NCBI RefSeq assembly: GCF_023061285.1
Contig: NZ_JAKGAM010000002.1
Span: forward strand, 124,001 to 188,000
DNA from: Chromohalobacter nigrandesensis
GTDB lineage: Bacteria > Pseudomonadota > Gammaproteobacteria > Pseudomonadales > Halomonadaceae
Reading direction: 5' to 3'
DNA: 64,000 nt
This document shows positions 2,558 to 33,834 of the stretch, piece by piece. Both the position numbers and the translations under genes were made by a program. The notes under the pieces are model-generated. The model did no database searches. It worked only from the letters and a program-made list of their open reading frames with translations, and was not told the origin of the DNA. Every line of letters starts with the position of its first letter. The first letter of the stretch is position 1.

Positions 2558-2649
2558 CGCATCCACGCCTTGAAGCAAGACCTGCAAGCCCCGCTCACGC
2601 GTCGTTATCGACGGTGAGCAGGGCCCCGTCCTCACCCTCGCATTCGTGA

Positions 2650-3213: not shown

Positions 3214-3241
3214 CCCACCATACGCGAGAGGATGCCTTGTC

Positions 3242-4543: not shown

Positions 4544-4568
4544 CCGACGTCTTTCCCCGCCTCAACGC

Positions 4569-4600
4569 CAACGGCCGCTGGAATGCTCCAGCGGCCGTTG
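4569..4600 (+). terminator. Rho-independent terminator after dctM
   Basis: A perfect 14-bp inverted repeat (4569-4582 and 4587-4600) with a 4-base loop ATGC, followed by TTAT. It lies 25 bp after the dctM stop and also between dctM and the convergent GguC gene, so it may stop transcription from both sides. Confidence 0.85.
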
Positions 4601-4655
4601 TTATATCGAGCCGAAAGGGCTCGAGAGGTTGGCTCGCGGGGCTTACCCACCAGAC

Positions 4656-5663
4656 TTACAAAGGTTTGACGCGCGGCACCGGCGCGGTGGCGTCCTTGGC
4701 CAGCGGATTGCGCAGCGGCAAGGCGAACGGCTTGGCGTCGATCTCGAAGACATCCCCCGGCTGGGCGCTGATGCCGTCGCTGAAGCTCAGCGTCGCGGTG
4801 CCGAAGAAATGTACATGTACGTCCCCCGGGCGGCAGAACTGCGCGTACTTGAAATGATGCGCCTCGAGATTGGCGAGGCTGTGGCACATGTTGTCCTCGC
4901 CGGAGATGAACGGCTTCTCCCATAGAACACCGCCATCGCGCCGGATGCGCGAGGTGCCTTGCACGTCGCTGGGGAGTTCGTCGACGAGCAGCGTCGGCCC
5001 GAAGGAACAGACACGCAGCTTGGAATGCGCCAGGTACAGGTAATTCTCGCGCTCGGTGACGTGATCAGAGAACTCGTTGCCCAGCGCATAGCCGATGCGA
5101 CGCGGCACACCGTTGTTGTCGATAAGGTACAGGCCGGCGACTTCCGGTTCCTCGCCGCCATCCAGCGCGAAATGCGGCATGTTCAGAGCCTCGCCCGGCG
5201 CCATGACGATGCCGCCGTCGCCCTTGTAGAACCACTCCGGCTGTACGCCGAAATCATCGCCGGCCGGCTTGCCGCCCTCGAGTCCCTTGCGGAACATCTT
5301 CATCGAGTCGGTGAGCGGCGCTTCGCTCTGGTCCGCCTCGTTCATCTGACGGTGCATCTTGTCGCGACCCTCGGCGCTGCCGAGATGCGTCAGCCCGGTG
5401 CCGGTGACCAACAAGTGTGCCGGATCGGGATGATCGAGCGGCGCCAACAGTTGCCCTTTATCGGACAACGCCACAGCATCAACGCGTGCGTCTCCCGGCC
5501 ACTCATCGATCAGCGCGGACAGCCCGACGCCACGCTCAAGCGCCGTGAGCGCCAGGGCATGCACGCTTTCCACGCCTTCCAGGCGGCGAGCCTGAGTCGG
5601 GTCATCGTCGATCGCCAGGACCACACGGTCTCCACTGTCGATTCTGGCTTGTGCGAGTTGCAT
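4656..5663 (-). CDS. gguC: GguC/AraD1-family sugar-acid protein (FAH-like fold)
   Basis: A 335-residue protein of the GguC/AraD1 family, related in its C-terminal half to fumarylacetoacetate hydrolase-type enzymes. Typical segments are LLVTGTGLTHLGSAEGRDKM (about residues 85-105), QPEWFYKGDG, GEEPEVAGLYLIDNNGVPRRIGYALGNEFSDHVTE, and a C-terminal GDVHVHFFGTATLSFSDGI. GguC was named in the Agrobacterium chvE-gguAB sugar transport operon, and AraD1 genes occur with arabinose/galactose oxidation genes; the exact reaction is not settled. It is divergent from a LysR gene, and a decayed aldose dehydrogenase lies just beyond it. The family call is confident; the substrate is inferred. Confidence 0.8.
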   Translation of the reverse strand: MQLAQARIDSGDRVVLAIDDDPTQARRLEGVESVHALALTALERGVGLSALIDEWPGDARVDAVALSDKGQLLAPLDHPDPAHLLVTGTGLTHLGSAEGRDKMHRQMNEADQSEAPLTDSMKMFRKGLEGGKPAGDDFGVQPEWFYKGDGGIVMAPGEALNMPHFALDGGEEPEVAGLYLIDNNGVPRRIGYALGNEFSDHVTERENYLYLAHSKLRVCSFGPTLLVDELPSDVQGTSRIRRDGGVLWEKPFISGEDNMCHSLANLEAHHFKYAQFCRPGDVHVHFFGTATLSFSDGISAQPGDVFEIDAKPFALPLRNPLAKDATAPVPRVKPL

Positions 5664-5786
5664 GTAATGGGCTCTCCTGAAGTACTTTGCAGTCTACGGT
5701 AACGTTTTTACATATAACCTACTAATGGCTCTTGACAGAAATACCGATATCCATTTTGTTATTGTTTTGTCCTGAGGCCAGACATA
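5664..5786. promoter_or_regulatory. Divergent promoter region between gguC and LysR
   Basis: A 123-bp AT-rich gap between divergent genes. It contains TTGACA at 5732-5737 reading towards the LysR gene, a possible -35 box, but no convincing -10 at 17 bp. LysR proteins usually bind such divergent gaps, so autoregulation plus control of gguC is likely but not shown. Confidence 0.4.
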
Positions 5787-7676
<1,890 letters not shown>

Positions 7677-7776: not shown

Positions 7777-9174
7777 TTACGTCAGCACGGCGAAGAGTAT
7801 CCAGGCGAGACCGAAGGCCATCAGCGAAATCGCTGTGGAAACCACGCTCCAGGTCTTGAGCATGGTCTTGGTTTCCATGCCCAGGAAACGCCCGACCAGC
7901 CAGAAGCCGGAATCGTTGACGTGCGAATAGCCAATGGCGCCCGCCACCACGGCGACCACGACACATGCCAGCGGCATGCCACTCAGCGAGGAGTCGAGCA
8001 CCGCCGGGGCGAGAATACCAGCCGCTGTGGTCCCGGCAACCGTCGCCGAGCCTTGCGCGATGCGGATCACCGCCGCGATCACATACCCCGCCACGAGGAT
8101 GGGCAGCCCCAGTGTCTGCAGGCTATCGGCCAATGCCTCGCCGATACCACTGGCGGTGAGCACGCCACCGAACATGCCGCCCGCGCCGGTGATCAGGATG
8201 ATGCTGCACACCGGAGCCAGCGCTTTCTCGATGGTCTCGTTGACGGCGCCCATGGCGCCTTTCTCATGGCCGCGCAACAGCAACAGCCACATTGCCAGGC
8301 ACAAGCTGATCAGCAACGCCACCGGCGTCTCGCCGATCAGCGTCAGCGCGCCAAGCACGGGATTGTCTTCCGGCAAGGTACCCGCGCTGATCAGAGTGGT
8401 GATGCCGGTATTCATGAAGATCAGCACCAGCGGCAACAGCAACACCAGCAGAATCGTCGAGAAACGCGGCAGCGTGGTGCGCTCGACTTCGTCGCTGTCG
8501 GCGCCGCCCATCAAGTCCGGTACCGGATGAAACGGCGTACGCTTGGCCAGCCACAGCGATAGCTGATAGCCCGCCAGATACCAGGTCGGCAGCCCCACGA
8601 TAAGCGCCACCAGCAGCACCATGCCGATGTCGCCCTCAAGGAAGACCGCTGCCGCCACCGGGCCGGGGTGCGGCGGTACCAAAGCGTGCATCACCAGAAA
8701 CGCACCCGCCGCCGGCAACGCATAGATCAGTAACGAGCCGCGCAGCTCGCGCGCGATGGAATAGATCACCGGCAGCATCACCACGAAGGCGGCATCCAGA
8801 AAGATCGGAAAGCCGAACAATAAACTGGCGATGGACAGCCCCAGTGGCGCTTTGTCCTTACCGCAGATTCGAATCAGGGTATCCGCCAATACCTTGGCGC
8901 CACCCGAGATCGCCACGATACGACCGAGAATCGCACCGAAACCGATCAACAATGCCACGTTGCCCAGGGTCTCGCCGAAACCGGAAAGCAGTGTCGAGAG
9001 CAAATCGTCTACGGTCACGCCGGTCGCCAGCGCCGTGGCAATACTCACGATTACCAGGGCAAGGAAGGGATGCAGCTTCACCTTGATAATCAGAAATAGC
9101 AGGATGGCGATCGCCCCGGCGGCCACTGCAAGCAGACCCGGCGTCGATAGAGAGAAAGCGAATGCGGTGTCCAT
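7777..9174 (-). CDS. GntP-family gluconate/organic acid permease
   Basis: A 465-residue membrane protein with about 12-14 transmembrane segments from the gluconate:H+ symporter family. Diagnostic regions are FGETLGNVALLIGFGAILGRI, SLLFGFPIFLDAAFVVMLPVI, the ALVPPHPGPVAAA loop (about residues 165-177), and the C-terminal RIAQGSATVAGTTAAGI with YSHVNDSGFWL. It imports sugar acids such as gluconate with protons; related proteins carry other hydroxy acids. It stands alone on its strand with no kinase or regulator beside it, although the sugar-acid gene and dehydrogenase remnant are only 2-4 kb away. Confidence 0.9.
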   Translation of the reverse strand: MDTAFAFSLSTPGLLAVAAGAIAILLFLIIKVKLHPFLALVIVSIATALATGVTVDDLLSTLLSGFGETLGNVALLIGFGAILGRIVAISGGAKVLADTLIRICGKDKAPLGLSIASLLFGFPIFLDAAFVVMLPVIYSIARELRGSLLIYALPAAGAFLVMHALVPPHPGPVAAAVFLEGDIGMVLLVALIVGLPTWYLAGYQLSLWLAKRTPFHPVPDLMGGADSDEVERTTLPRFSTILLVLLLPLVLIFMNTGITTLISAGTLPEDNPVLGALTLIGETPVALLISLCLAMWLLLLRGHEKGAMGAVNETIEKALAPVCSIILITGAGGMFGGVLTASGIGEALADSLQTLGLPILVAGYVIAAVIRIAQGSATVAGTTAAGILAPAVLDSSLSGMPLACVVVAVVAGAIGYSHVNDSGFWLVGRFLGMETKTMLKTWSVVSTAISLMAFGLAWILFAVLT

Positions 9175-9492
9175 ACGGTCCTCGCATTGGTGGCTGAACG
9201 CCGCTCAGCGACGGCGAGACGACAACCTAATGCGTTTACCGATAGCCATCTAATGTGTTTTGTGGCTAAAAGTGATATCTATTCGATCATCATATTCATA
9301 CGCCCCCTAAGTATTGGGGATCACACCCATCACAGTCGACCAAAGACGTAAGACCAAAGTCTGCAGCGCAGCGTGGGGCTACCTCAGGAAACCCGCATCG
9401 GCCCGGGGATGATGGTCGAGGTGGATATCGACGTCAGCGACGCCGAACCGCGCGATCACGACTGATCGCACGGGCCGAGCGCAAGCGATCGC
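9175..9492. other. Intergenic gap with a short possible gene relic
   Basis: A 318-bp gap upstream of the GntP gene, so its promoter must lie near 9175-9300. Near the far end, plus-strand bases 9382-9465 stay open with coding-like bias (GLPQETRIGPGMMVEVDIDV, then TGA) but have no start site or recognisable domain. This could be the tail of a lost gene or chance. Nothing else is visible. Confidence 0.3.
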
Positions 9493-10098
9493 TCATTTCA
9501 AGCCTTCGGCCTGCATGGCGCGCTGAACCGAGCCTCGCTCGGCGATGCGCGCCACGAAGCGCTGCAGATGGGGCCACGCGTCCAGTGAAATATCCACCAC
9601 CCGCGCCCAGCCGAGGACCGTAAACAGGTAGGCGTCCGCGACGCTGAAGTGCTCGCCCACCACGTAGTCGCGCGACGCCAGGCGCTCGTTCATCAGCGAC
9701 AGGCGCGTCTCGAGGTTCTTCTGCGCGATGTTGCGCCAGGTGTCGCCACTATTGGGCTTGAAGAAGGGGCTGAAGTTCTTGTGCAATTCGGTGGAGATAA
9801 ATACCAGCTGGCTCAATAGTTCAAAATACGCCTTGCTCCCCGGCGTGGGCGCCAACTTCGCCTCCGGCACGACATTGGCGACGTAGAGAAGAATCGCCGC
9901 CGCCTCGGTCATCACCTCGCCGTCGTCCAGCACCAGGGCGGGTACGTAACCGTTGGGACTGATCGCCAGGTAATCCTCGCCGCTCTCCGTCTTCTTGGCG
10001 ACCAGATCCACTTTCTCGATCTCGTAGGTCAACTCGGCCTCTTCCAGCGCGATGTGCACGGCCATCGCACAGCTACCCGGCTTGAGATACAGCTTCAT
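9493..10098 (-). CDS. gst: Beta-class glutathione S-transferase
   Basis: A cytosolic 201-residue protein with an N-terminal thioredoxin-like domain (residues 1-80) and a C-terminal helical domain (90-200). MKLYLKPGSCAMAVHIALEE places a Cys at residue 10, the hallmark of bacterial beta-class GSTs. ISPNGYVPAL has the conserved cis-Pro that binds glutathione, and LTEAAAIL-like TEAAAILLYV follows. It conjugates or reduces electrophiles with glutathione; the substrate is unknown. It runs in the same direction as the MBL-fold gene 45 bp upstream, possibly as one unit. Confidence 0.9.
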   Translation of the reverse strand: MKLYLKPGSCAMAVHIALEEAELTYEIEKVDLVAKKTESGEDYLAISPNGYVPALVLDDGEVMTEAAAILLYVANVVPEAKLAPTPGSKAYFELLSQLVFISTELHKNFSPFFKPNSGDTWRNIAQKNLETRLSLMNERLASRDYVVGEHFSVADAYLFTVLGWARVVDISLDAWPHLQRFVARIAERGSVQRAMQAEGLK

Positions 10099-10143
10099 AT
10101 CATGCGCTCCAAGATTGTCATATCGTGTTGCAAAGGTGTGCGT

Positions 10144-10950
10144 TCACTTCTCCCGAGACACCCTCAATGCCTGGCAATGACGTGCCACCGACAGAGCCAC
10201 CACGGTGCTGGCATCGCCGATGATCTCACTGCCCCAGAATGCCGCGTAGGCGGCCTCGAATTCCAGAGTGCGCAAGCGTTCGCCGATGCGTGACACCTCA
10301 TCGGCAGGCAGCGGAATGTTATTGGGATACGACCACATGAACGACGCCATGCGGTCCGGCGTCACCAGCAGCGTGTCTCCCGTCAACAATAGCCCCCGTG
10401 CTTCCCAATGCAGCACGCTGGCGCCGGGGAAATGCCCGCCCAGGCGGTGCGCCGTTATCCCCGGTAGCACCTCCAGTGTCTCGCCCTCCCACGGATGCAG
10501 CGCCTCGTCCGGCACCATGATCCACTCGCGGTCCGCCGCGTGCACGTACACCGGGCACTCGAACGCGCGGCCCCAGCTCGCCATGGTGGCGTAGTAATGC
10601 GGATGCGAAATGACGATAGCCTTTAGCCCGCCCAGCGCCTCGATCAACGTGACCGTCGCCGCGTCCAGCAGGCTCAGGCAATCCCACAGCACATTGCCCT
10701 GCGGCGTGCGCAACAAGAACGCCCGCTGGCCGATGGCGAATTTCGGTACCGTGCCCAACGCTAGTAGATCCGGCGCCATCTCGCGAAAGGTATTGGTATG
10801 CCCCGCCATTAACGCCGCCGGCGTCGTCCACTGCTGGCCCGATGCCGGCACGTACTGCCGCTCGTCCTCACACACCGGACACCGCGACGGCGGTGTCTCG
10901 CTCGCGGGGTACTGCACCCCGCATGTCGCACATAGAAATCCTGGTAACAT
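10144..10950 (-). CDS. MBL-fold metallohydrolase with N-terminal zinc ribbon
   Basis: A 268-residue protein. The N-terminus has a rubredoxin-like ribbon (CATCG at residues 7-11 and CPVCED at 24-29). A metallo-beta-lactamase fold follows, with SHPHYYATM in place of the usual HxHxDH, then GGHFPGASVLHW and LLTGDTLLV. The first two His, the GGH His and the GD Asp are kept, while the second-metal Asp-His pair is absent, so it may bind one metal or act differently. This HPHYY form recurs in a family of unknown substrate. Nothing in the context indicates its function. Confidence 0.75.
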   Translation of the reverse strand: MLPGFLCATCGVQYPASETPPSRCPVCEDERQYVPASGQQWTTPAALMAGHTNTFREMAPDLLALGTVPKFAIGQRAFLLRTPQGNVLWDCLSLLDAATVTLIEALGGLKAIVISHPHYYATMASWGRAFECPVYVHAADREWIMVPDEALHPWEGETLEVLPGITAHRLGGHFPGASVLHWEARGLLLTGDTLLVTPDRMASFMWSYPNNIPLPADEVSRIGERLRTLEFEAAYAAFWGSEIIGDASTVVALSVARHCQALRVSREK

Positions 10951-11248
10951 TATCCTGTCCCTCCCTCGCGTTAGCGCTTGGAACGAGTGTGGGTGAAGGG
11001 CGGGGCTGGAGCTAGATTAGTAATGACTCACCTCCAACGCATGTCACCGATCATCAATACAAAAACCGGCGTTTCTCGGCACCCGGTTGAGAGTGAGCAT
11101 TGACTTGTTTCTTGGCCAGGGCGGCTTATGCCGCCAGAGCGGTCATGCGCCGCGCCTGTCTCACTCTATGCCCGACGAAGGTCGATCTCCAAGCCCGGTG
11201 ATGTTGCCGGTCGGTTTCAGCGTGTCGACACGACGGGCGCGCTCCAAG
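10951..11248. other. Gene-free gap with one short hairpin
   Basis: 298 bp between the MBL-fold gene start and the tetR stop. It must hold the promoter of the MBL-fold/GST pair near 10951-11050. A 6-bp stem with a TTAT loop (11120-11135) may end the tetR transcript, but no T-run follows. No coding frame here is convincing. Confidence 0.4.
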
Positions 11249-11839
11249 CTATGTCGCATACGACTGGAGTAGACGCTTGGCCATGCCCTTGGCAACGAGA
11301 GCCGCTTGAGGGTCCGCCATGACATGCGCCTGGACAATCGCGCCTTCCTTTAGAAAGACGAGTTCTTGAGATAATTCGTCGGCTCTCTCGGCATTAACCT
11401 GGTATGCATGACGAAATAGCATCTCACGCACAAGGCGCTTATGCGTTTGGCACTGCTGATGATGAACGTTCTGCGGGTCGGTGTATTCCGCGCAGGTATT
11501 GATGAAGAAGCACCCATGGAACGGCATGATGGCCTCGTCACGCTCGTTGAACCAGTCATCTAGCGCATCGAATACCGCTAAAAGCGCACCTTCTCCTGGC
11601 GGCGCCTGCTCTATGCGTGCTTCAAGCCATGTGCGGAATTGCTGATCTCGATACACCAGCGTCGCCGCGATCAATGCTTCTTTGCTATCGAAGTGGTGAT
11701 ACAGCGTTCTTTTTGCGACTCCCGCCACGTCGATAACCTGATTGATACCGACGGCATGTATGCCATAGCGATAAAAAAGTGAAAACGCCGTGGAGATCAG
11801 TTGGTCACGTTTTTCCAATCTGTTGCTTGCTTGAGACAA
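11249..11839 (-). CDS. TetR-family transcriptional repressor
   Basis: A 196-residue TetR regulator. The DNA-binding domain (about residues 10-57) contains FSLFYRYGIHAVGINQVIDV and AGVAKRTLYHHFDSKEALI. The C-terminal ligand domain is of the type seen in YcdC/AcrR relatives, with FHGCFFINTCAEYTD. The start is a TTG at 11839 with GGGGAG 7 bases upstream, and no better ATG fits. It is divergent from the HPP-family gene, and the gap carries a perfect 18-bp inverted repeat, so it very likely represses itself and the HPP gene. The effector is unknown. Confidence 0.88.
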   Translation of the reverse strand: MSQASNRLEKRDQLISTAFSLFYRYGIHAVGINQVIDVAGVAKRTLYHHFDSKEALIAATLVYRDQQFRTWLEARIEQAPPGEGALLAVFDALDDWFNERDEAIMPFHGCFFINTCAEYTDPQNVHHQQCQTHKRLVREMLFRHAYQVNAERADELSQELVFLKEGAIVQAHVMADPQAALVAKGMAKRLLQSYAT

Positions 11840-11876
11840 AGCCCTGCTCCCCGTGGATCAACATAGCTTGATATTT

Positions 11877-11921
11877 GTATACCGATCTGTCTACCATACA
11901 CAAGTAGACAGATCGGTATAC
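11877..11921. promoter_or_regulatory. Double TetR operator (perfect 18-bp inverted repeat)
   Basis: Bases 11877-11894 and 11904-11921 are perfect reverse complements separated by 9 bp. Each arm is itself a near-palindrome of TetR type (TATACCGATCTGTCTA, 6 of 8 positions symmetric), so the site looks like two facing repressor sites. It lies 38 bp before the tetR start and 24 bp before the HPP start. Confidence 0.8.
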
Positions 11922-11944
11922 ATCCACCTTCAGGAGTCGGCTCC

Positions 11945-12430
11945 ATGAAATCTCTCCTCCCTCCTATCTTTTCAGCCGCCATTGCGGGATTCGGCGCCAT
12001 GGCGTGCATCACGCTGCTTGCCTATCTTGAACATCTCGACACATCGATAATGTGGTTGATGGCGCCATTTGGAGCGACGATGGTGATCTTGTTCGGCTTG
12101 CCCTCAAGCCCTCTCGCCCAGCCCCGTAATATACTGTTTGGGCATCTCATCACTTCCATGGTAGGTGTCATCATTCTGCATGCCTTAGGCGTGACGCCGC
12201 TGTCACTAGGGCTCGCGGTAGGATTGGGCGTCTTTTTCATGCTGATGACCAAAACCACTCACCCACCCGCTGGCGCCAACCCGCTCGTAATCATGTTAAC
12301 CGGCCAGTCTTGGCAGTTTTTAGTTTTTCCCGTAGGAGTGGGTGCTTTGGCTATATTAGGATTCGGTTTGCTATATCATCGCTTGATCAGCCGTCACGAA
12401 TATCCGGCGGCCATTCGCGCTCATTCATAA
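11945..12430 (+). CDS. HPP-family inner membrane protein
   Basis: A 161-residue integral membrane protein with four to five helices. It carries the HPP signature THPPAGANPLV (about residues 105-115), preceded by LMAPFGATMVILFGLP and QPRNILFGHLITSMVGV, all standard for the family. Some HPP proteins transport nitrite in cyanobacteria and chloroplasts, but proteobacterial functions are largely unknown. AGGAG precedes the ATG. It is controlled by the divergent TetR gene through the palindrome between them (inference). The stretch appears less GC-rich than its neighbours by eye. Confidence 0.88.
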   Translation: MKSLLPPIFSAAIAGFGAMACITLLAYLEHLDTSIMWLMAPFGATMVILFGLPSSPLAQPRNILFGHLITSMVGVIILHALGVTPLSLGLAVGLGVFFMLMTKTTHPPAGANPLVIMLTGQSWQFLVFPVGVGALAILGFGLLYHRLISRHEYPAAIRAHS

Positions 12431-12463
12431 AAAGCTGCTCACTCATGAACGGAGATTAGTTCC

Positions 12464-13102
12464 ATGGAACTGACGACGTGGTTGACCTATGTCGGCGTTA
12501 TCGCCGCATTGATCGCCTTTCCCGGCCCGGTGGCCTTGTTATGCATGCATCATGGGCTGCGCCATGGTCGCCAACGTGCACTGGCGACGGTGATCGGTGG
12601 GGCGACGGCATCGCTGGTGCTCATGGGGCTGTCGTCGTTAGGGCTGGGGGCGATTCTGGCCACGTCGGAGCTCGCCTTCACGTTGCTCAAGGGTGTAGGC
12701 GCGGCGTACTTGATCTATCTGGGCGTGCTGGCCTGGCGCGCACCGGTGACGGCGTCGATGACGGACGATACCGCGCAGAGCCCACAGCACGTCGAGCGCA
12801 CCAGCACGAGAGCCCTCTTCCGGCGCGGTTTTACAGTGGGTATCAGCAACCCCAAGGACCTGCTCTTCTTCGGCGCATTGTTTCCCGGCTTCATCGACCT
12901 CGGCGCCCCGCAACTGCCGCAATTCGCGATCCTGTCGCTGACCTGGTTGGCCATCGACCTCGCCACCATGTCGAGCTACGCCACGATGGGGTCGGGGATC
13001 GGTCGCTGGTTCCATAGTCCGCGCCGCGTGAAGCTCTTCAATCGCACCACGGGCAGCTTGTTCATCGCCGCCGGTGGGACCTTGGCAGCCTCGCATCGCT
13101 GA
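12464..13102 (+). CDS. LysE/RhtB-family amino acid exporter
   Basis: A 212-residue membrane protein with six helices of the LysE superfamily. The N-terminal FPGPVALLCMHHGLRHGRQRALATVIGG and the mid-protein FRRGFTVGISNPKDLLFFGALFPGFID are characteristic. Members export amino acids or derivatives such as homoserine, threonine, leucine or lysine. It follows the HPP gene by 33 bp with its own GGAG site and could be co-transcribed with it. Convergent with the DUF533 gene, 11 bp apart. Confidence 0.85.
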   Translation: MELTTWLTYVGVIAALIAFPGPVALLCMHHGLRHGRQRALATVIGGATASLVLMGLSSLGLGAILATSELAFTLLKGVGAAYLIYLGVLAWRAPVTASMTDDTAQSPQHVERTSTRALFRRGFTVGISNPKDLLFFGALFPGFIDLGAPQLPQFAILSLTWLAIDLATMSSYATMGSGIGRWFHSPRRVKLFNRTTGSLFIAAGGTLAASHR

Positions 13103-13113
13103 AGATCCGGGCA

Positions 13114-13842
13114 TTAACCGGCCTGCTGTGCCTGGTTTTCAAGTTCGACGGTCATCTCTTGAGGCAAATCAAGGGCACTGGCCAATTGATCGAGCCAGGC
13201 GCGTTCCATCGGGTTTTGTTCATCGATCACGGCGACGCTGATTAGATACATTTCCCGCGCCGCTTGGGGCGAGTCCGCTTCACGGGCCAGCGCTTTGGCA
13301 TCCAGCGGCGCATTTAGCTGTTGTTCGACCCAGCGGTGCATTTCGTCATCGGCCCCTAATGCATCGATCTGCTCGGTGATCATCGCCTGTTCTTGCTCGT
13401 CGATGTGGCCATCGGCTCGGGCCGCCATGATCATTGCCTGCAATAATTCCAGACTCCGCCGCTCCTGGTACTCGCCATTGAGCGTCTCGACACGCTCGCC
13501 CTCGCCAGCGGCTTGTGGCTCGCTGCCCGAATTTTTGTTTTGAGAACTTTGCCACGCTTTCCAGGCCAATACGCCGACACCGGCAATAGCACCGTATTTG
13601 AGTGCTTTACCGCCCAGCTTGCGGCCCCGCTTGGAGCCGACCAGCATGCCCATGGCACCGCCGCCGAGCAGGCTTTTCATATCGAAGCCGCCCGAAGACC
13701 CACCGCTGGATTTATCACCTGAGGCATTGCCGCCCAGTTGTTTCGAGAGGCCACCCAACATGCCTTTTACATCGACACCGCTGCCCTTCTGACTGCCACC
13801 GGCTTGTTGCATCAATTGCTGCAGTATTTTGCTTGCGTTCAT
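13114..13842 (-). CDS. DUF533 / TerB-like protein
   Basis: A 242-residue protein of the DUF533 (YebE) family. It starts MNASKILQQLMQQAGG. A low-complexity Gly/Ser linker (about residues 20-70) is followed by a short hydrophobic segment GKALKYGAIAGVGVLAWKAW, and a C-terminal TerB-like helical domain (about 130-235) has MIMAARADGHIDEQEQAMI and ANPMERAWLDQLA-like motifs. It is probably inner-membrane associated. The ATG at 13842 has AGGAGTCGAGGG upstream; an in-frame start at 13944 adds a leader without homology. The function is unknown in all bacteria. Confidence 0.82.
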   Translation of the reverse strand: MNASKILQQLMQQAGGSQKGSGVDVKGMLGGLSKQLGGNASGDKSSGGSSGGFDMKSLLGGGAMGMLVGSKRGRKLGGKALKYGAIAGVGVLAWKAWQSSQNKNSGSEPQAAGEGERVETLNGEYQERRSLELLQAMIMAARADGHIDEQEQAMITEQIDALGADDEMHRWVEQQLNAPLDAKALAREADSPQAAREMYLISVAVIDEQNPMERAWLDQLASALDLPQEMTVELENQAQQAG

Positions 13843-14090
13843 CCCTCGACTCCTTCGGTAGTCACTGACAACGCTGTTTAACGGATCGATCTTTATGCAG
13901 ACGGTGCTTTTTAATTCAACAGGCTTCCCTGACGACGGGCCCACACATCAATACGGACCGATGTAGACACCTTGAGTTCGTAGAGCATAGCAAGAACGTG
14001 ATCAACGCTGCCTCAACGAAGCGGGACATCCTGACACTAGTGCCGACACCGTTGCTTTTAGCGAGATCGCCACGCCGTTTCCCTTCCACA
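13843..14090. other. Intergenic region upstream of DUF533 gene
   Basis: Gap between the DUF533 start and the terminator of the next minus-strand gene. It should contain the DUF533 promoter. I see no coding frame, repeat or hairpin of note. Confidence 0.35.
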
Positions 14091-14115
14091 AAAAAGCCAC
14101 ACCCGAAGGCGTGGC
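14091..14115 (-). terminator. Rho-independent terminator of the PHP metallohydrolase gene
   Basis: On the minus strand an 8-bp stem (14108-14115 with 14096-14103, one G-T pair) and a TTCG-type loop are followed by six T. It lies about 80 bp beyond the stop of the gene. Confidence 0.85.
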
Positions 14116-14193
14116 ATTCCCTTGAAGCCCCTTTGAACAGGGGTCTTGACGGCGCATTATCGTAGTTGTGGTGACGCGGGCCGGATCGCGCGA

Positions 14194-26949: not shown

Positions 26950-27105
26950 AACCTCTCTCCTGCGCGGCCCCCGTGCTCTGGACTGGCACGACGACGTGTC
27001 TTCACATACCGCGATGGTAGCCCTGTCGCCCCTCCGGCGGAGTGCTTGCAAACGTCATGGCCGGATGCGTTTGCGACACGCCGATGAAGTCCAGCGGTCA
27101 GCGTT

Positions 27106-27903
27106 TCAGCACGACTTCTTCTTGATTGTCGAGGGTGGGTACCCAAAATGCCGGCGAAAGGCGCGAGAGAAAGAAGAGTTATCGGAGAAACCAAGATCCA
27201 TGGCAATGCGCCCTAGCGACAAGCGGGTGGTTTGCAACCATGTCATGGCCCACTGCAAACGTCGCTGCAGCACATATTGTTGCGGAGTTTTTCCGAAGTG
27301 GCGCAGAAACAGCATATGCAGTTGGCTTTGCCCCAAGTGCATAAAATCGGCAAGGGCGGCGTTGGACGGCGGTGTTTCCAAAGAAGCATCGATAAAGGCA
27401 TTGATTTCGTCAAGCGAGAAGCGTCGCTCCCTCGGCAGGGCATTATCACTGCCGAATTCCATCAATTCGTAAACCTGAGTGACGAACATCATGGCGAGCT
27501 GTCGACGCAGCAAATGATGCGGATCATGTGAGCCGAAAAAGCGCAGCTGCTCAACTGCCACGTTGATCGTCGACACCATGACGGGCGGCATCTCGAAAAA
27601 CCCCGAGTTCGAAAAAAGCCTTCCCACAAAGTCGACGCGGCTTGCTTCTTCTAGTGCTGTGAGGCAGCTATCGACGCTACTCAAGTCGACCACGAGTAGC
27701 TCGCTTCTATCATCGCAGCCGGCAAAATGATGGCGGGTATTGGCAGGCACTACTGCCGCCGTTGAGCTACATAGGCGCCGCGACTCGCGATCGAATGCAC
27801 ACTCCATCTCACCACGCCAACCGAGCAACAACTGCGGAAAGTCGTGGCAATGTTCGCCTTGTGTGCGAGCGATATGATTGCGTCGGGCCTGGGTCTGTTG
27901 CAT
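27106..27903 (-). CDS. AraC-family regulator, probably of the hydroxyproline genes
   Basis: A 265-residue regulator with an N-terminal cupin-like sensing domain (HCHDFPQLLLGWRGEMEC, PANTRHHFAG) and a C-terminal AraC DNA-binding domain (about residues 160-262: MHLGQSQLHMLFLRHFGKTPQQYVLQRRL, then LGFSDNSSFSRAFRRHFGYPPS). The ATG at 27903 has GGTGA five bases upstream; a GTG at 27912 is also possible. It is divergent from the OCD-family gene, 133 bp apart, so it likely activates the cassette at 28.0-33.6 kb. The inducer is unknown but may be cis-3-hydroxyproline. Confidence 0.87.
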   Translation of the reverse strand: MQQTQARRNHIARTQGEHCHDFPQLLLGWRGEMECAFDRESRRLCSSTAAVVPANTRHHFAGCDDRSELLVVDLSSVDSCLTALEEASRVDFVGRLFSNSGFFEMPPVMVSTINVAVEQLRFFGSHDPHHLLRRQLAMMFVTQVYELMEFGSDNALPRERRFSLDEINAFIDASLETPPSNAALADFMHLGQSQLHMLFLRHFGKTPQQYVLQRRLQWAMTWLQTTRLSLGRIAMDLGFSDNSSFSRAFRRHFGYPPSTIKKKSC

Positions 27904-28036
27904 AACGGTCACCGAAGAGGCATCAGAGCGGGCATCACACCGGAACTCAAGGCAAAGATTGCGGAGTTCGAGTCAAGCCACTCTGGTTGCAAGCATCATA
28001 GTCTACAGCGATAAACATCACTCACTGGAGACTGTC

Positions 28037-28993
28037 ATGTATTGCAACGCTGAACAAGTCGCTGACGCCCTCCCCTGGCCGGCACTCATCGACGCCCTCG
28101 ATGATATTTTCACCCACGAGGTAAACTCCCCCATTCGCCACCACCATCACCTGTCCGTGAGTGGCGATCCGGATGCCACGCTACTTTTAATGCCCGCCTG
28201 GATTGAAGACCGTTACTTGGGCGTCAAACAGGTCAACGTATTCCCCGGCAATACGGCGCGGGGCGAACCTGGTCTGACCGGCCACTATCTGCTTAGTTGC
28301 GCCCGTACGGGACGTCATCTGGCGCAGTTCGAGGCCAATGAGCTGACCTCGCGTCGCACCGCAGCCGCTTCGGCACTGGCCTCTCGCTACCTTTCCCGCG
28401 ACGATGCTCAAGAACTGCTCATGGTAGGCGCCGGACGCATGGCACGCCGCCTGGTACCGGCGCATGCCGCCGTACGACCGATTAATCGTGTACGCGTGTG
28501 GGATATTTATCCCGAGTCGGCCGCTACCTTGGTCGCGGAGCTGAAGGAACAGGGGTATCAGGCCGAGCAGGTCGCCGCAGACGATCTGCAACGGACAGCC
28601 GGTGAAGCAGACATCATCAGTTGTGCCACGCTCAGCCAGACTCCTTTGATTCACGGTGATTGGCTCTCGCCAGGCACCCACGTCGACCTAGTGGGCAGCT
28701 TCACGCCATCGATGCGCGAGGCAGACGACGAGGTCATGCGCCGAGGACAAGTGTTTGTCGATACCCGTGCCGGAGCACTGGCCGAAAGTGGCGATCTAAT
28801 CGACCCTATCGCCTCAGGTGCCATCAGTGAAGCCGATGTACTGGCCGACTTCTTCGACCTGTGCGCAACACGTCATCAAGGGCGTAGCGAATTGAGCAGC
28901 CCTGATGAAGCGATCACAGTATTCAAGGCGGTGGGCGCATCATGCGAAGACCTGGCAGCCGCCATTACCGCTTACGAAAGGCGCAGCCGCTAA
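28037..28993 (+). CDS. Ornithine cyclodeaminase/mu-crystallin family, likely Pyr2C reductase
   Basis: A 318-residue NAD(P)H enzyme of the OCD/mu-crystallin family. It has LKVVNVFP-like GVKQVNVFPGN, the substrate-side FEANELTSRRTAAASALASRYLSR, a Rossmann motif ELLMVGAGRMARRLVPAHA (about residues 130-150), and GTHVDLVGSFTPSMREADD. Members next to hydroxyproline dehydratases reduce delta-1-pyrroline-2-carboxylate to L-proline. With aconitase X downstream this is the best reading; ornithine cyclodeaminase or ketimine reductase are alternatives. TGGAG precedes the ATG at 28037. First gene of the cassette. Confidence 0.82.
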   Translation: MYCNAEQVADALPWPALIDALDDIFTHEVNSPIRHHHHLSVSGDPDATLLLMPAWIEDRYLGVKQVNVFPGNTARGEPGLTGHYLLSCARTGRHLAQFEANELTSRRTAAASALASRYLSRDDAQELLMVGAGRMARRLVPAHAAVRPINRVRVWDIYPESAATLVAELKEQGYQAEQVAADDLQRTAGEADIISCATLSQTPLIHGDWLSPGTHVDLVGSFTPSMREADDEVMRRGQVFVDTRAGALAESGDLIDPIASGAISEADVLADFFDLCATRHQGRSELSSPDEAITVFKAVGASCEDLAAAITAYERRSR

Positions 28994-29043
28994 GCACTTG
29001 CGTCAACATCCATCTTACTGCTGAACAAAAGGAACAATACAGC

Positions 29044-30570
29044 ATGAAAAATGAAACTCAGCCCATCGCGCTCCCCTCGCTAGGCATGGCACTGCTGCCA
29101 ATACTATTGACGATTGGCTTGCTTGCCATCCAACTCTTCTATTATGGCGACTTCACGCCCCACATACCGTTAGCACTCGGTGCCGCCATAGCCGCGATCT
29201 TCGGCTGGGCCCGTGGTTATCGCTGGCAAGAGATGCAAGCGGGTGGCTTCAAACTGCTCCACGTCGCCATGCCTGCAGTGGCTACTCTGATTGTGGTGGG
29301 CATGCTGATCGGGGTGCTGATTTCCAGCGGCACCGTCCCAACGCTGATCTACTACGGCCTCGAGTTACTCAGCCCACAATGGTTTCTAGCCGCCACCATG
29401 CTGATGTGTGCGGTAGTTTCATTGGTAGTCGGTTCTTCCTGGACCACCGTTGGTACGGTGGGGCTCGCACTGATGGGGATCGGTATAGCCCTTGAAGTGC
29501 CCGTCTACTGGACCGCGGGGGCCATCGTCTCCGGTGCCTTCTTCGGCGATAAGATGTCGCCGCTATCGGATACCACCAACCTGTCGCCAGCGGTGACCGA
29601 AACCAATATTTTCGATCACATCAAGAACATGCTGCCAACCACGGTGCCCGCCATGCTGATCGCACTAGTGATCTATGCCTGGGCGGGAGGCGGCGATCCG
29701 GAAGGCGCGTCATCACTGGCACGTATCGCCGATATCCGCGAAGGCCTGACCGATGCCTTTCAATTGGGCTTCTGGCAATTGATCCCATTGCTCGTCATTT
29801 TGACGCTGGCCTTCCTGAAAATTGCCCCCATTCCGGCCCTATTCACAGCAACCTGTCTGGGCGGCGTCATCGCCATGCTGACCCAAGGCGTTTCCTTCCA
29901 TGATGTGCTGACCTACGCCCATAGCGGCTACACGGTCGACACGGGCATTGGCCCGCTGGATACCTTGCTTAACCGTGGCGGCGTCACTTCCATGACCTGG
30001 GTAGTCACGCTGATCATATTCGCGCTAATTTTCGGCGGCATTCTGGAGAAGACTCGGTGTCTCGAAAAGGTCGTGACCACTATCACCGAAAAGGCACGCA
30101 GCTTCAGGGCACTTCAGACCAGCGCAGTCCTTACCCCGATTTTCGTCAACACCATCGCTGGCGATGTCTATCTCTCCATCGCTCTGCCAGGTCGCATGTA
30201 TGTCAGCGCCTATGATCGCCTTGGCTATTCACGACTCAACCTGTCACGCGCCATTGAAGAGGGAGGCACATTGGTCTCACCACTGATCCCCTGGAACGTC
30301 GGCGGGGCCTTCGTGATGACGACTCTGGGACTCACGGTAAGTGATGGTGACCTAAGCGCATTGCTCTACATTCCGTTTGCCTTTGCCTGCTGGCTATCCC
30401 CCCTTATAAGCATCATCTACGCACAGCTCGGGCTTTTTTCCCATAAAGCGGATCCTGAGAAGCGCCCTAACAGCGACCAGCCCGCACGGCTGTCCTCGCA
30501 GGACGAGGGAGAGGGGCCGATTCCGCCGGGCGATGAGAATATTGCACTACAGAACTCGGGTACATCATGA
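29044..30570 (+). CDS. NhaC-family Na+/H+ antiporter-like transporter
   Basis: A 508-residue membrane protein with about 11-12 helices. Family features are SLVVGSSWTTVGTVGLALMGIG (about residues 123-144), GAFFGDKMSPLSDTTNLSPAV, and the C-terminal LTPIFVNTIAGDVYLSIALPGR and RAIEEGGTLVSPLIPWNVGGA. NhaC proteins exchange Na+ with H+ or with organic ligands such as malate/lactate in MleN. Being inside a catabolic operon, it may carry the substrate, perhaps hydroxyproline, with sodium (inference). AAGGAA precedes the ATG at 29044. Its end overlaps the next start by 4 bp. Confidence 0.85.
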   Translation: MKNETQPIALPSLGMALLPILLTIGLLAIQLFYYGDFTPHIPLALGAAIAAIFGWARGYRWQEMQAGGFKLLHVAMPAVATLIVVGMLIGVLISSGTVPTLIYYGLELLSPQWFLAATMLMCAVVSLVVGSSWTTVGTVGLALMGIGIALEVPVYWTAGAIVSGAFFGDKMSPLSDTTNLSPAVTETNIFDHIKNMLPTTVPAMLIALVIYAWAGGGDPEGASSLARIADIREGLTDAFQLGFWQLIPLLVILTLAFLKIAPIPALFTATCLGGVIAMLTQGVSFHDVLTYAHSGYTVDTGIGPLDTLLNRGGVTSMTWVVTLIIFALIFGGILEKTRCLEKVVTTITEKARSFRALQTSAVLTPIFVNTIAGDVYLSIALPGRMYVSAYDRLGYSRLNLSRAIEEGGTLVSPLIPWNVGGAFVMTTLGLTVSDGDLSALLYIPFAFACWLSPLISIIYAQLGLFSHKADPEKRPNSDQPARLSSQDEGEGPIPPGDENIALQNSGTS

Positions 30571-31835
30571 GTGCTAGTACATCCTCACTCCGCCCCGACG
30601 TCGTGGTCGTCGGGGCTGGGTTGATCGGCATGACCAGCGCCTTGAAGTTACAGCAGGAGGGGCTTCGCGTGCTGGTGGTTGACCGCGATGACCCGGGCAA
30701 AGGGGCCTCCTTCGGCAATGCCGGGTACCTGGCTACAGAACTCATCGAACCGCTCTCGACGCCCGAGACCCTGCGCAAGGCACCAACACTACTGCTCGAC
30801 CCACATGGCCCACTGGCGCTACCACCGCGCTATCTGCCACGCCTGCTGCCCTGGCTTACACGCTTTGCGATGGCGGCGCGCAAACCCAGCGTGAATACTG
30901 GACGCCAGGCATTGGCCGCGCTCAACAGTCAGGCGCTGATCGCCTGGCAGCGTTGTCTGAACGGTATCGGCGCCGAAGACGAGCTGATCGCCTCGGGGTA
31001 CCTGATGGTGTGGGAAAATGAACGCACGTTAGAGAAGGCGCGCTACCACCAAGATAAACTCGGCAAGTATGGCATTCGGACCGATCTGCTGGATGCCGAT
31101 GCGGTGCAGGCGCAAGATAGTGGGCTGAGCAGACATATTCACCACGCCCTGCTATTTCCCAATGCCCACCAGGTCAGCGATCCATATCGCGTAGTACAAC
31201 GGTTGGTCGAGGCATTTCAAAGCGCCGGTGGCGAGATCGTGCGCGAGAGCGTCGAAAAGATCAGTGCGACCCATGAAGGTGTCGAGGTTCGTGCAAGCCA
31301 GCGTCGTATCGAGGCGAACCGAGTACTAATCGCCACTGGCGCATGGAGCAGTCGGCTTGCCGAGCAATTAGGCCTGAAGATGCCGTTGGAGAGCGAAAGC
31401 GGACACCATCTCACCATAGCCGATCGTGTTGATGCACTACGCCAACCGGTCGGATCAGCCGAGCGCAACGTGGTGATGGCACCTCTCAAGAGTGGGCTCA
31501 GGATAGTTGGCTTCTCCGAGCTGGGTGGGCTGGCACTCAAGCCCAACTCCAAACGTTCGCGTACTCTCAAGCATCATGCTTCAGCACTGTTGAGCGATAC
31601 CACCGGCATCGAACAAGCCAGCGACTGGATGGGCTTTCGCCCAACGTTGCCCGATTCCCTTCCGGTGATTGGTCAGCACCCACGACATTCACAAGTTCAG
31701 TTCGCCTTCGGGCACCAGCACCTAGGACTGACACAGGCCGCGATTACCGCCGAGTTGGTCGCCGATCAGCTAATGAATCGCACCCCGACAATTAATCTGA
31801 CACCGTTCCGGCCGGAGCGCTTCACGAGTGCTTGA
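30567..31835 (+). CDS. DadA-like FAD-dependent D-amino acid dehydrogenase/oxidase
   Basis: A 422-residue DAO-family flavoenzyme. The FAD motif is DVVVVGAGLIGMTSALKLQQ (residues 10-29) with RDDPGKGASFGNAGYLATE, and the C-terminal flavin motif is GFRPTLPDSLPVIG with FGHQHLGLTQAAITAELVA. This layout matches DadA-type D-amino acid dehydrogenases, including D-hydroxyproline dehydrogenases of bacterial hydroxyproline operons. Here it could act on D-proline, a D-hydroxyproline or another imino acid; no racemase gene is nearby, so its place in the pathway is unclear. Overlaps the NhaC-like gene by ATGA. Confidence 0.84.
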   Translation: MSASTSSLRPDVVVVGAGLIGMTSALKLQQEGLRVLVVDRDDPGKGASFGNAGYLATELIEPLSTPETLRKAPTLLLDPHGPLALPPRYLPRLLPWLTRFAMAARKPSVNTGRQALAALNSQALIAWQRCLNGIGAEDELIASGYLMVWENERTLEKARYHQDKLGKYGIRTDLLDADAVQAQDSGLSRHIHHALLFPNAHQVSDPYRVVQRLVEAFQSAGGEIVRESVEKISATHEGVEVRASQRRIEANRVLIATGAWSSRLAEQLGLKMPLESESGHHLTIADRVDALRQPVGSAERNVVMAPLKSGLRIVGFSELGGLALKPNSKRSRTLKHHASALLSDTTGIEQASDWMGFRPTLPDSLPVIGQHPRHSQVQFAFGHQHLGLTQAAITAELVADQLMNRTPTINLTPFRPERFTSA

Positions 31836-31942
31836 TTGACGCACGCCTCCCACCGGCGCCGTGACACTATTCGCCAGTACCGTACAGGCATAACGTTGTG
31901 CGCTCCGGCGCTATATCGAGTCATCACGCAGAGGAACAGAAC

Positions 31943-33625
31943 ATGTCACGACGTGTGATTACAGGTTACGCCGATGCCACTCTCCTCGCCTCCCATGAAG
32001 GCTTGAGCTTCTGGGGCGGCGTGGACGCCGCTACCGGCGAAGTAATCGATTCGCAGCACCCACTTAAAGGGCAAAACTTGGGTGGAAAAATACTGGCTAT
32101 GCCTACCAGCCGTGGCTCTTGCACCGGGAGCGGCATACTTCTCGAGTTGATCGCCAACGGTAACGCCCCGGCGGCGCTGGTGTTCAGTGAAGCAGAGAGT
32201 ATTCTGACCCTCGGGGCGCTCGTCGCTCGGCATCTTTTCGACCAAACGATTCCAGTGGTCCAGCTCGATTCCGAATCGTTCGAGCGGCTCTGGCGCTGTG
32301 AGCGGGTGTATATCGATGATCAGCGTCTGGTGGCCAATGGAATGGATGTTCCCCTCACGCCTCTTTCAAGCGAGGCGCTCATGTTGACAGACTATGATCG
32401 CGCACTACTCGAAGGCCACGAAGGCGACGCGGCACAGAGCGCAATGCGTATTCTCCACGACATGGCCGTGATCGAGGGTGCCACACGCCTGATTAATGTT
32501 TCACGGGTACATATCGACGGCTGTATCTATGCCAGTCCCGCTCTGCTGAGTTTTGCTGAAGTCTTTGCCGATATGGGCGGCCGCGTGCAAGTGCCCACCA
32601 CCATGAACTCGATCTCGGTCGAACACACCCAATGGCAGGTGCAAGGAGTCCCGGAGGCCTTCGGCATACCCGCCAGCCGCTTGGCAGATATTTATGTGGC
32701 AATGGGCGCACGGCCCACCTACACATGTGCGCCTTACCTGCTTCAGGATACGCCCGTCGCCAACGAGGTAATCGCCTGGGCCGAATCCAACGCTGTTATC
32801 TACGCCAACAGCGTGCTCGGCGCGCGTACCGCCAAGCACCCCGATCTCCTCGATCTATGCATCGCGCTGACCGGACGCGCACCTTGCCACGGCGTCTACC
32901 TTGATGAGGAGCGCCGTGCGCGGCGAACCATCGCCGTCAACGTACCCACCGAACACGACGATTCGCTCTGGTCGCTCTTGGGCTATCGGCTGGGACAACT
33001 CGCCCCCGATTGCATACCATTGGTCACCGGTATCGACACTCTAGCGCCCAGCGACGACGACTTGAAAGCACTTTGTGCCACCTTCGGCACAACGTCTGCC
33101 GCGCCCATGCTGCAGATTGAGGGCGTCACTCCTGGGGCCTCTGGTATCGCCCCGGACGCCGACCGGGCGACCATCACGGTTGCCGATCTGGCAAACGTCT
33201 GGCAGCAGTTCAACGCTGGCGCCGTCGACATCGAACTTGTCGCCTTCGGTAGCCCGCACTTCTCGCTTGCCGAGTGTCGAAAGCTTGCCAAACTGATGGA
33301 CGATCAGCGCTGCCACCCAACGGTTACCGGCATCGTCACCCTAGGGCGCGACACGCTCGAGGCGGCGCGGCAGGAAGGTAGCGCACAGTCACTTGAAGCC
33401 GCCGGACTGCGCCTGCACACCGATCTTTGCTGGTGTTCGATCTCCGAGCCTGTTTTTCCGCCGAAAGCACGCACATTGATGACTAACTCCGGCAAATACG
33501 CCCACTACGCGCCAGGCCTTAGCGGACGCGAAGTCCGCTTTGGAAGCCTCGCCGAGTGCGTGTCAGCACTTGTTACCGGGCATACGACAGACACTCTTCC
33601 CAACTGGTTACAGGCAACTTGCTAG
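31943..33625 (+). CDS. Aconitase X, probable cis-3-hydroxy-L-proline dehydratase
   Basis: A 560-residue single-chain aconitase X. The N-terminal DUF126 small domain (about residues 1-130) has HPLKGQNLGGKILAMPTSRG then SCTGSGILLELI, and the large DUF521 domain (about 145-560) has RVHIDGCIYAS, VPTTMNSISVEH, TCAPYLLQD, NSVLGARTAKHPDLLDLCIALTGRAP and VTGIVTLGRD. Fused bacterial AcnX enzymes dehydrate cis-3-hydroxy-L-proline to delta-1-pyrroline-2-carboxylate, which the OCD-family partner here would reduce to L-proline. The ATG at 31943 has GAGGAA upstream; an in-frame start at 31898 is rejected. It lies 107 bp after the flavoenzyme gene. Confidence 0.85.
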   Translation: MSRRVITGYADATLLASHEGLSFWGGVDAATGEVIDSQHPLKGQNLGGKILAMPTSRGSCTGSGILLELIANGNAPAALVFSEAESILTLGALVARHLFDQTIPVVQLDSESFERLWRCERVYIDDQRLVANGMDVPLTPLSSEALMLTDYDRALLEGHEGDAAQSAMRILHDMAVIEGATRLINVSRVHIDGCIYASPALLSFAEVFADMGGRVQVPTTMNSISVEHTQWQVQGVPEAFGIPASRLADIYVAMGARPTYTCAPYLLQDTPVANEVIAWAESNAVIYANSVLGARTAKHPDLLDLCIALTGRAPCHGVYLDEERRARRTIAVNVPTEHDDSLWSLLGYRLGQLAPDCIPLVTGIDTLAPSDDDLKALCATFGTTSAAPMLQIEGVTPGASGIAPDADRATITVADLANVWQQFNAGAVDIELVAFGSPHFSLAECRKLAKLMDDQRCHPTVTGIVTLGRDTLEAARQEGSAQSLEAAGLRLHTDLCWCSISEPVFPPKARTLMTNSGKYAHYAPGLSGREVRFGSLAECVSALVTGHTTDTLPNWLQATC

Positions 33626-33834
33626 CCTTCAGGACTCTCGCCTAGAAAGTGACGGCAGCACCAAAGGCAAGTGGCAGCTCCAAATGGAAATCGAACACAT
33701 AGGGGTGCTCTCCCTGGCGCGGCCAGCAGCACGCCACGACTTTCAAACAGCCATGCTGCTGTGCGGGTCAACGTCCCCCCACCCACCAAAGAGCAGGTGG
33801 TACGAGCACCAGGTTGCCACGCCGACGTACACGG
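33626..33834. other. Gap between convergent acnX and formate dehydrogenase genes
   Basis: 209 bp with no clear terminator hairpin. Several short frames remain open across it, but none has a start site or family resemblance. I see nothing else. Confidence 0.3.

Follow-up and report, generated by a model that had tools for sequence, protein, structure and literature searches.

The 64-kb stretch of the Chromohalobacter nigrandesensis genome analyzed here (contig C12:124001-188000 of a 3.64-Mb genome; hereafter the window) carries a five-gene cassette that encodes an AraC-family regulator, an OCD-family reductase, an NhaC-family carrier, a DadA-like flavoenzyme and a single-chain aconitase X (AcnX). 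The cassette is probably a mobile catabolic operon organized around Δ1-pyrroline-2-carboxylate (Pyr2C), in which a core for D-proline is joined by AcnX as a feeder from cis-3-hydroxyproline. An earlier note on this DNA had described a probable cis-3-hydroxyproline cassette, leaving the NhaC and flavoenzyme genes unplaced; both find an explanation here because two forms of proline probably converge on the shared Pyr2C intermediate. The AcnX feeder of that description stands, but AcnX is not the center of the system, being found in only 3 of 18 related loci, and the core is instead AraC-OCD-NhaC-flavoenzyme, in some genomes followed by PutA.

Gene content of the cassette

The features of the cassette, in window coordinates, are as follows.

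27077..27084, no strand: left 8-bp direct repeat CACGCCGA, cassette boundary; single copy at the empty site of genome G025
27106..27912, minus strand: AraC-family regulator, divergent from the operon (PF12833, 82 bits; PF00165, 44.4 bits)
27938..27978, plus strand: probable AraC operator, two direct repeats 5' of OCD (aligned in 15 loci; 37.0 bits)
28037..28993, plus strand: OCD-family Pyr2C/Pip2C reductase, 318 aa (NF004793, 429.1 bits, cutoff 322)
29044..30570, plus strand: NhaC-family carrier, 508 aa, proposed substrate importer (TIGR00931, 398.5 bits, cutoff 370; neighborhood)
30567..31835, plus strand: DadA-like FAD enzyme, 422 aa, proposed D-proline dehydrogenase yielding Pyr2C (PF01266, 202.7 bits; own clade)
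31943..33625, plus strand: single-chain AcnX (NF051439, 888.7 bits, cutoff 700; homolog 7cnp; active-site residues)
33688..33734, minus strand: 47-bp remnant of a malate/lactate-dehydrogenase-family (Ldh_2) reductase gene (87% identity to the gene of genome G001)
33818..33825, no strand: right 8-bp direct repeat CACGCCGA, cassette boundary, same repeat as at 27077..27084

The five genes lie in the order and over the span first described, although the longest open reading frames of OCD, NhaC and AcnX start somewhat 5' of the likely start codons. The ATGA overlap of NhaC and the flavoenzyme gene was located at 30567-30570, and the flanking genes were likewise recognized, from their translations alone, as sarcosine-oxidase (sox) and formate-dehydrogenase (fdh) genes. 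The reported lack of a nearby racemase gene also holds for the whole contig, which has no PF05544 gene; the two members of this proline-racemase family in the genome are on contigs C3 and C10. The grouping of the five genes as one unit is more than a chance arrangement, and their order recurs in other genomes.

A core operon recurs in Halomonadaceae

A search of 201 Halomonadaceae genomes with NhaC returned 18 matches (E<1e-200, at least 63% identity; the next match was at 2.1e-186). The neighborhoods of these core loci were scored by tblastn in stretches of 16-20 kb, except for the window, which is one of the 18 and was scored from its own 64-kb sequence. The flavoenzyme gene adjoins NhaC in 17 loci; 17 likewise have an OCD-type reductase gene next door, which is full-length in 14. 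An AraC-type gene is divergent in 15 loci, the window included, and co-directional in two. PutA lies directly 3' of the flavoenzyme gene in six loci; the L073 PutA is a bifunctional proline dehydrogenase (NF008869, 1466.6 bits, cutoff 747), and the window genome carries its own PutA on contig C1. All 17 core reductases scanned matched NF004793 at E<=1e-90. Genes for the epimerase family, an LhpC-like deaminase and KGSA dehydrogenase were found in none of the 18 stretches.

The search for the five-gene neighborhood proposed in the earlier note thus recovered the core and only rarely its fifth member. AcnX as the organizing gene of the cassette is ruled out, since 15 of the 18 core loci are without it. 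In those loci no enzyme of the unit other than the flavoenzyme could feed the reductase. The conserved neighborhoods support the earlier suggestion of a second branch, for D-isomers, made up of NhaC and the flavoenzyme.

A search of the same 201 genomes with the flavoenzyme yielded 21 core-type loci (E<1e-105), namely the 17 already described plus L075, L271, L272 and L273. L075 has AcnX with an Ldh_2-type reductase gene beside it, and L272 has PutA plus a more distant NhaC. Among the 21 loci, AcnX is present in four, PutA directly 3' in seven and LhpC in none. Another type of OCD takes the place of the reductase in L263 and L268. Outside Halomonadaceae, L299 contains a full AraC-OCD-NhaC-flavoenzyme unit and L300 an AraC-OCD-flavoenzyme unit with NhaC 4.6 kb further on.

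Predicted pathway

AcnX and OCD have strong family assignments, by which AcnX would dehydrate cis-3-hydroxy-L-proline to Pyr2C and OCD would reduce Pyr2C to L-proline, both as first proposed. The OCD protein exceeds the equivalog cutoff of NF004793, a model that also names Pip2C reductase activity; a paralogue with 50% identity is encoded on contig C47. The AcnX protein contains PF01989 (residues 21-106) and PF04412 (147-540), clears its curated model NF051439, and aligns over nearly its full length with the solved Agrobacterium tumefaciens enzyme 7cnp. In that alignment, inspected by eye, 15 of 15 substrate- and [2Fe-2S]-binding residues are identical (residues as named in PMC8184944). A mevalonate-5-phosphate dehydratase or a member of an uncharacterized branch, the outcome that would have told against the cis-3-hydroxyproline role, is excluded by the curated model, the solved homolog and the active-site residues.

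In the proposed pathway, the AraC regulator would sense the substrate and activate OCD-NhaC-flavoenzyme-AcnX from the two conserved repeats 5' of OCD, and the NhaC-family carrier would import the imino acid. The flavoenzyme would oxidize D-proline (or D-ornithine, whose oxo acid would cyclize to the same compound) to Pyr2C and hand the electrons on to the respiratory chain. The OCD reductase would then convert Pyr2C to L-proline, and PutA, encoded in the operon of some relatives and elsewhere in this genome, would convert L-proline to glutamate. AcnX would deliver the same Pyr2C from cis-3-hydroxy-L-proline, as a second feeder on a hub that usually lacks it.

D-proline and D-ornithine are the D-amino acids known to yield Pyr2C when oxidized. 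They are the substrates considered for the flavoenzyme because its usual partner is a Pyr2C reductase and PutA comes next in some genomes, so that it should form Pyr2C. D-ornithine is the less likely of the two as core substrate. If it were the substrate, the flavoenzyme would form 2-oxo-5-aminovalerate, which cyclizes to Pyr2C for OCD and PutA, and NhaC would be an ornithine carrier; the reductase and PutA fit this route equally well. NhaC scores 358.6 on the arginine/ornithine antiporter (ArcD) model NF052307, which gives the idea some appeal but is below the cutoff of 650. Among the close folds of the predicted flavoenzyme structure is the Pseudomonas aeruginosa D-arginine dehydrogenase (Z 38.8 and 39.2), although glycine oxidase (best Z, 44.7) and the Pyrococcus horikoshii L-proline dehydrogenase 1y56_B (42.1) are higher. 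The joining of AcnX in several loci and the kinship to hydroxyproline-type flavoenzymes favor a ring substrate, and a D-ornithine operon is considered unlikely.

The predicted structure (pLDDT 90.3) has the glycine/sarcosine/D-amino acid oxidase fold. The fold matches point only to the general amine/amino-acid oxidase fold and do not decide the substrate.

The flavoenzyme forms its own clade

In a flavoenzyme tree of 46 rows, the 21 core-type rows fall on one side of a branch with support 96/94, and the epimerase-linked flavoenzymes, including those of the C3 contig of the window genome and of Sinorhizobium meliloti pSymB, fall outside the core clade. Nine further rows also lie outside the clade, with the genomic context examined for one of them. 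Two paralogue loci of the window genome, which gave no usable row, and L299 and L300 are not part of the tree, and its root is unsure because the three outgroup rows from the window genome are very long. The core rows are thus placed apart from the epimerase-linked, hydroxyproline-type D-amino acid dehydrogenases by a branch supported at 96/94 in a tree for which the program warned of long branches, among them the one between the core and one other group.

The flavoenzyme groups are separated at 20 positions under the thresholds used. At position 384, which adjoins the position aligned with Arg329 of glycine oxidase, Q is found in all 21 core rows; of the two other groups, one has H in 13 of 14 rows, the remaining row being a gap, and the other has G in all 8 rows.

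Hydroxyproline-type loci were used as a control. A phylum-wide search of 398 genomes with a core flavoenzyme matched 16, two of which were already known; 12 of the 14 new genomes were fetched (G404 and G442 were left out), one of them, G003, belonging to Halomonadaceae. Two of the 12 gave the core-like loci L299 and L300, eight gave clusters with an epimerase and LhpC, and two gave neither. The control set of 21 hydroxyproline-type loci consists of these eight clusters and 13 loci from the tree (L067 on C3 of the window genome, L072, L076-L078, L120, L122, L146-L148, L150, L157 and L274 of S. meliloti). An epimerase-family gene was present in 21 of 21; its identity to the query was only 25-37% for L146-L148, L157 and L274 and 32-37% for several of the eight clusters, where it is a putative epimerase. 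LhpC was found in 21 of 21 hydroxyproline-type loci versus 0 of 21 core-type loci, so that this deaminase, rather than the Pyr2C reductase, separates the two types.

The cluster on C3, L067 (G000:C3:1-14000), is the trans-4-hydroxyproline cluster of the window genome; between 1038 and 7032 it includes an epimerase, a DHDPS-family deaminase, a gene that appears GntR-like by sequence, a flavoenzyme and, at its end, a second NhaC-like carrier. In L122 (G287; 8976-14152), a PutA-like gene with 52% identity to the L073 PutA directly follows AcnX, and an OCD gene sits beside the hydroxyproline-type flavoenzyme.

These data bear on the idea that the window flavoenzyme is itself of hydroxyproline type, a cis-4-hydroxy-D-proline or 3-hydroxy-D-proline dehydrogenase, which would make the cassette a hydroxyproline cluster in reduced form; in a variant, the flavoenzyme and OCD would epimerize 3-hydroxy-D-proline into the AcnX substrate. 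The enzyme is 38.7% identical to the flavoenzyme of the C3 cluster, which also has an NhaC-like neighbor, AcnX often lies within hydroxyproline clusters elsewhere (in loci examined here and in PMC5144071), and OCD occurs in two hydroxyproline-type loci as well. However, the core flavoenzymes form a separate clade with Q384 throughout, their loci are without LhpC, and 15 of 18 core loci have no AcnX, which makes this explanation improbable. In the window, a trans-4-hydroxy-L-proline cluster was not recovered, with no epimerase, DHDPS-family deaminase or KGSA dehydrogenase gene in the 64 kb.

The proposed NhaC carrier

The window NhaC is a plausible carrier of the operon substrate, because proteins of its family were assigned to tyrosine transport in a T-box study (PMC2494555) and an NhaC-like gene is a neighbor in the trans-4-hydroxyproline cluster of the same genome. 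That C3 protein is 34.8% identical to the window NhaC and its gene adjoins the C3 flavoenzyme gene, which suggests that NhaC proteins serve hydroxyproline uptake there too. No solved NhaC relative was found by sequence search. An ordinary Na+/H+ antiporter that carries no amino acid and is co-expressed to help a halophile balance salt or pH would agree with the window NhaC clearing TIGR00931, but is unlikely given that the C3 protein scores even higher on that model (479.6), so that a catabolic carrier cannot be told from an ion antiporter by this score, that tyrosine transport was assigned to the family, and that NhaC lies next to the flavoenzyme gene in 17 of 18 loci.

Evidence weighing against a D-proline operon

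Several observations count against a D-proline operon with AcnX as feeder. The flavoenzyme falls below the cutoffs of both the DadA D-amino acid dehydrogenase model NF001933 (207.2 versus 383) and the archaeal D-proline dehydrogenase model NF040813 (64.1 versus 600). It may act as a D-proline dehydrogenase without being a member of NF040813, but no curated model was cleared and the substrate is read from neighborhood logic. The long-branch warning applies to the tree that defines its clade, and the model cleared by NhaC is one for Na+/H+ antiporters.

The partnership of the genes is also imperfect. NhaC stands alone, without partners, in G007 (L257); the core-clade flavoenzymes of L271 and L273 have none of the core partners, neither NhaC nor the reductase; and PutA directly follows the flavoenzyme gene in only the six loci mentioned. 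Of the 17 core loci with a reductase gene, 3 have a damaged copy. In L265 (G166; 11232-12101) the OCD frame stops about 30 residues early within a core operon that has PutA, and in L259 (G154; 8337-8507) only the first 57 residues of OCD are left in a core operon that is complete in other respects and also has PutA. In L071 (G001), OCD is frameshifted by a 26-bp tandem duplication around 13866-13943, with a neighboring Ldh_2-family reductase gene that looks intact; a shorter OCD protein from a later TTG is possible, and the single assembly could contain an error.

Moreover, core loci are not the only ones with a Pyr2C reductase. An OCD gene lies beside the flavoenzyme gene in 2 of 21 hydroxyproline-type loci (L120 and L122; 34%), and an Ldh_2-type gene is present in 6 of 21. 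The case for a D-proline operon is made slightly weaker by the OCD genes of those two loci together with the shortened OCD of L265. Lastly, a scan of the AraC-OCD gap for sigma-70-like promoters gave no match.

Putative AraC operator

The gap between AraC and OCD contains two direct repeats 21 bp apart, with the family consensus GCGGAGCCTGnnnCAA. They could be aligned in 15 loci, L299 included, and are degenerate in several, the window among them. A weight matrix was built from these 15 loci, window included, which it scores at 31.8-59.2 by construction; the window site at 27938-27978 (37.0 bits) is the only one in the window above 8 bits, and the maximum in 133,425 bases of simply shuffled sequence was 8.3 bits. 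Of the loci outside the matrix, L259 scored 47.0 and L263 25.8, there 5' of NhaC. Two unrelated sites above 12 were found among the other loci scanned, one of 18.1 within the AcnX coding sequence of L122 and one of 12.6 in L245. The L268 site (17.4) is below the former and was not counted as support. Terminator-like sites were found in neither the OCD-NhaC nor the flavoenzyme-AcnX gap.

Probable acquisition of the cassette and loss of reductases

The genus has eight other genomes that lack the cassette, and in all eight the sox side adjoins the fdh side at an empty site; one of them, G100, also lacks part of fdh. The empty site of G025 has one copy of CACGCCGA, and its flanks are 98.5% and 95.3% identical to those of the window. 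The GC fraction at third codon positions ranges from 0.62 to 0.67 for the five genes of the cassette and from 0.71 to 0.82 for the eleven flank genes tested. These features fit acquisition of a mobile cassette. The 8-bp repeats could mediate loss as well, and the patchy pattern, with the cassette in G001 and not in the closer G025, allows either transfer or repeated loss.

The remnant at 33688-33734 is 87% identical to a gene of G001 (L071:7255-8292), with 13 of 13 residues matching; the G001 counterpart is a PF02615 protein. An Ldh_2-family reductase gene sits by AcnX in G001, L072 and L075. The remnant 3' of AcnX in the window and the frameshifted OCD of G001 suggest mirror-image losses, in which OCD was retained and the second reductase lost in the window, whereas G001 retained the second reductase. 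The OCD and Ldh_2 (MLD2) families are both known Pyr2C reductases, according to PMC4113996.

Relation to known pathways

Pseudomonas putida reportedly catabolizes D-proline through a D-amino acid dehydrogenase and a Pyr2C/Pip2C reductase (Muramatsu 2005, as cited in PMC6034422). The proposed logic is the same, oxidation to Pyr2C followed by NAD(P)H reduction to L-proline, but here the reductase is of OCD type, the flavoenzyme belongs to a distinct clade, and NhaC, AraC and sometimes PutA are in one unit.

The trans-4-hydroxy-L-proline cluster is composed of 4HypE, a DAAO-family oxidase, a DHDPS-family deaminase and KGSA dehydrogenase, and the trans-3-hydroxy-L-proline pathway of t3HypD with an OCD or MLD2 Pyr2C reductase (both as given in PMC4113996). 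The former has a DadA-like flavoenzyme in common with the cassette, which in the C3 cluster likewise comes with an NhaC-like carrier; in the cassette, however, a Pyr2C reductase stands in place of the epimerase, deaminase and KGSA dehydrogenase. The latter shares with the cassette system the Pyr2C intermediate and both reductase families, but the cassette has no proline-racemase-family gene, and AcnX and the flavoenzyme are the proposed feeders instead.

No published description of this arrangement was found in the open-access literature searched. The parts and the enzyme logic are known; what is new is the combination, the flavoenzyme clade and the role proposed for NhaC. There is about an even chance that AraC-OCD-NhaC-flavoenzyme(-PutA) is an unrecognized D-proline operon with its own flavoenzyme and carrier families, with Pyr2C as the hub, AcnX plugged into at least two flavoenzyme lineages, and two redundant reductases lost in different species. 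If true, a dedicated D-proline route would be added for halophiles, and testable functions would be gained for two families whose current annotation goes no further than Na+/H+ antiporter and D-amino acid dehydrogenase. It would also illustrate the assembly of a pathway on a shared intermediate, where the hub is retained as its feeders and reductases are exchanged, and where damaged reductase genes still bear witness to the process.

Distribution of AcnX

Among 201 Halomonadaceae genomes, 10 encode a type-I AcnX with 49% identity or more over almost the entire length, and within the genus 2 of 10 genomes do; counted by matches above the model cutoff, AcnX occurs in 16 of the 293 genomes searched for the order and in 19 of the 398 for the phylum. 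The nearest named relative by AcnX, among the two relatives returned by the scan, was Chromohalobacter canadensis (86%). Genes in 34 AcnX loci were predicted with a codon-usage caller, which called AcnX in 29 and not in L110, L117 and L120-L122. Judged by appearance, 15 of the 29 loci have an ABC-transporter-like gene set; the window AcnX is instead joined to OCD-NhaC-flavoenzyme.

An AcnX tree was built from 24 of the 34 loci plus the window, with 10 loci left out. The window pairs with G001, then L072, and L073 pairs with L074. The flavoenzyme tree places the AcnX-less L256 within the group of the window and L073 elsewhere. AcnX and the core appear to have partly separate histories, because the two trees group the loci differently.

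Two AcnX loci have other neighbors. In L072, a TmpA/gamma-butyrobetaine-type dioxygenase gene (2379-3521; 350.2 bits, cutoff 400) lies 5' of AcnX. In the stretch of L074 (G160), where flavoenzyme and OCD genes were not found, NhaC, an extracellular solute-binding protein (PF13416) and AcnX are encoded together at 2969-7465.

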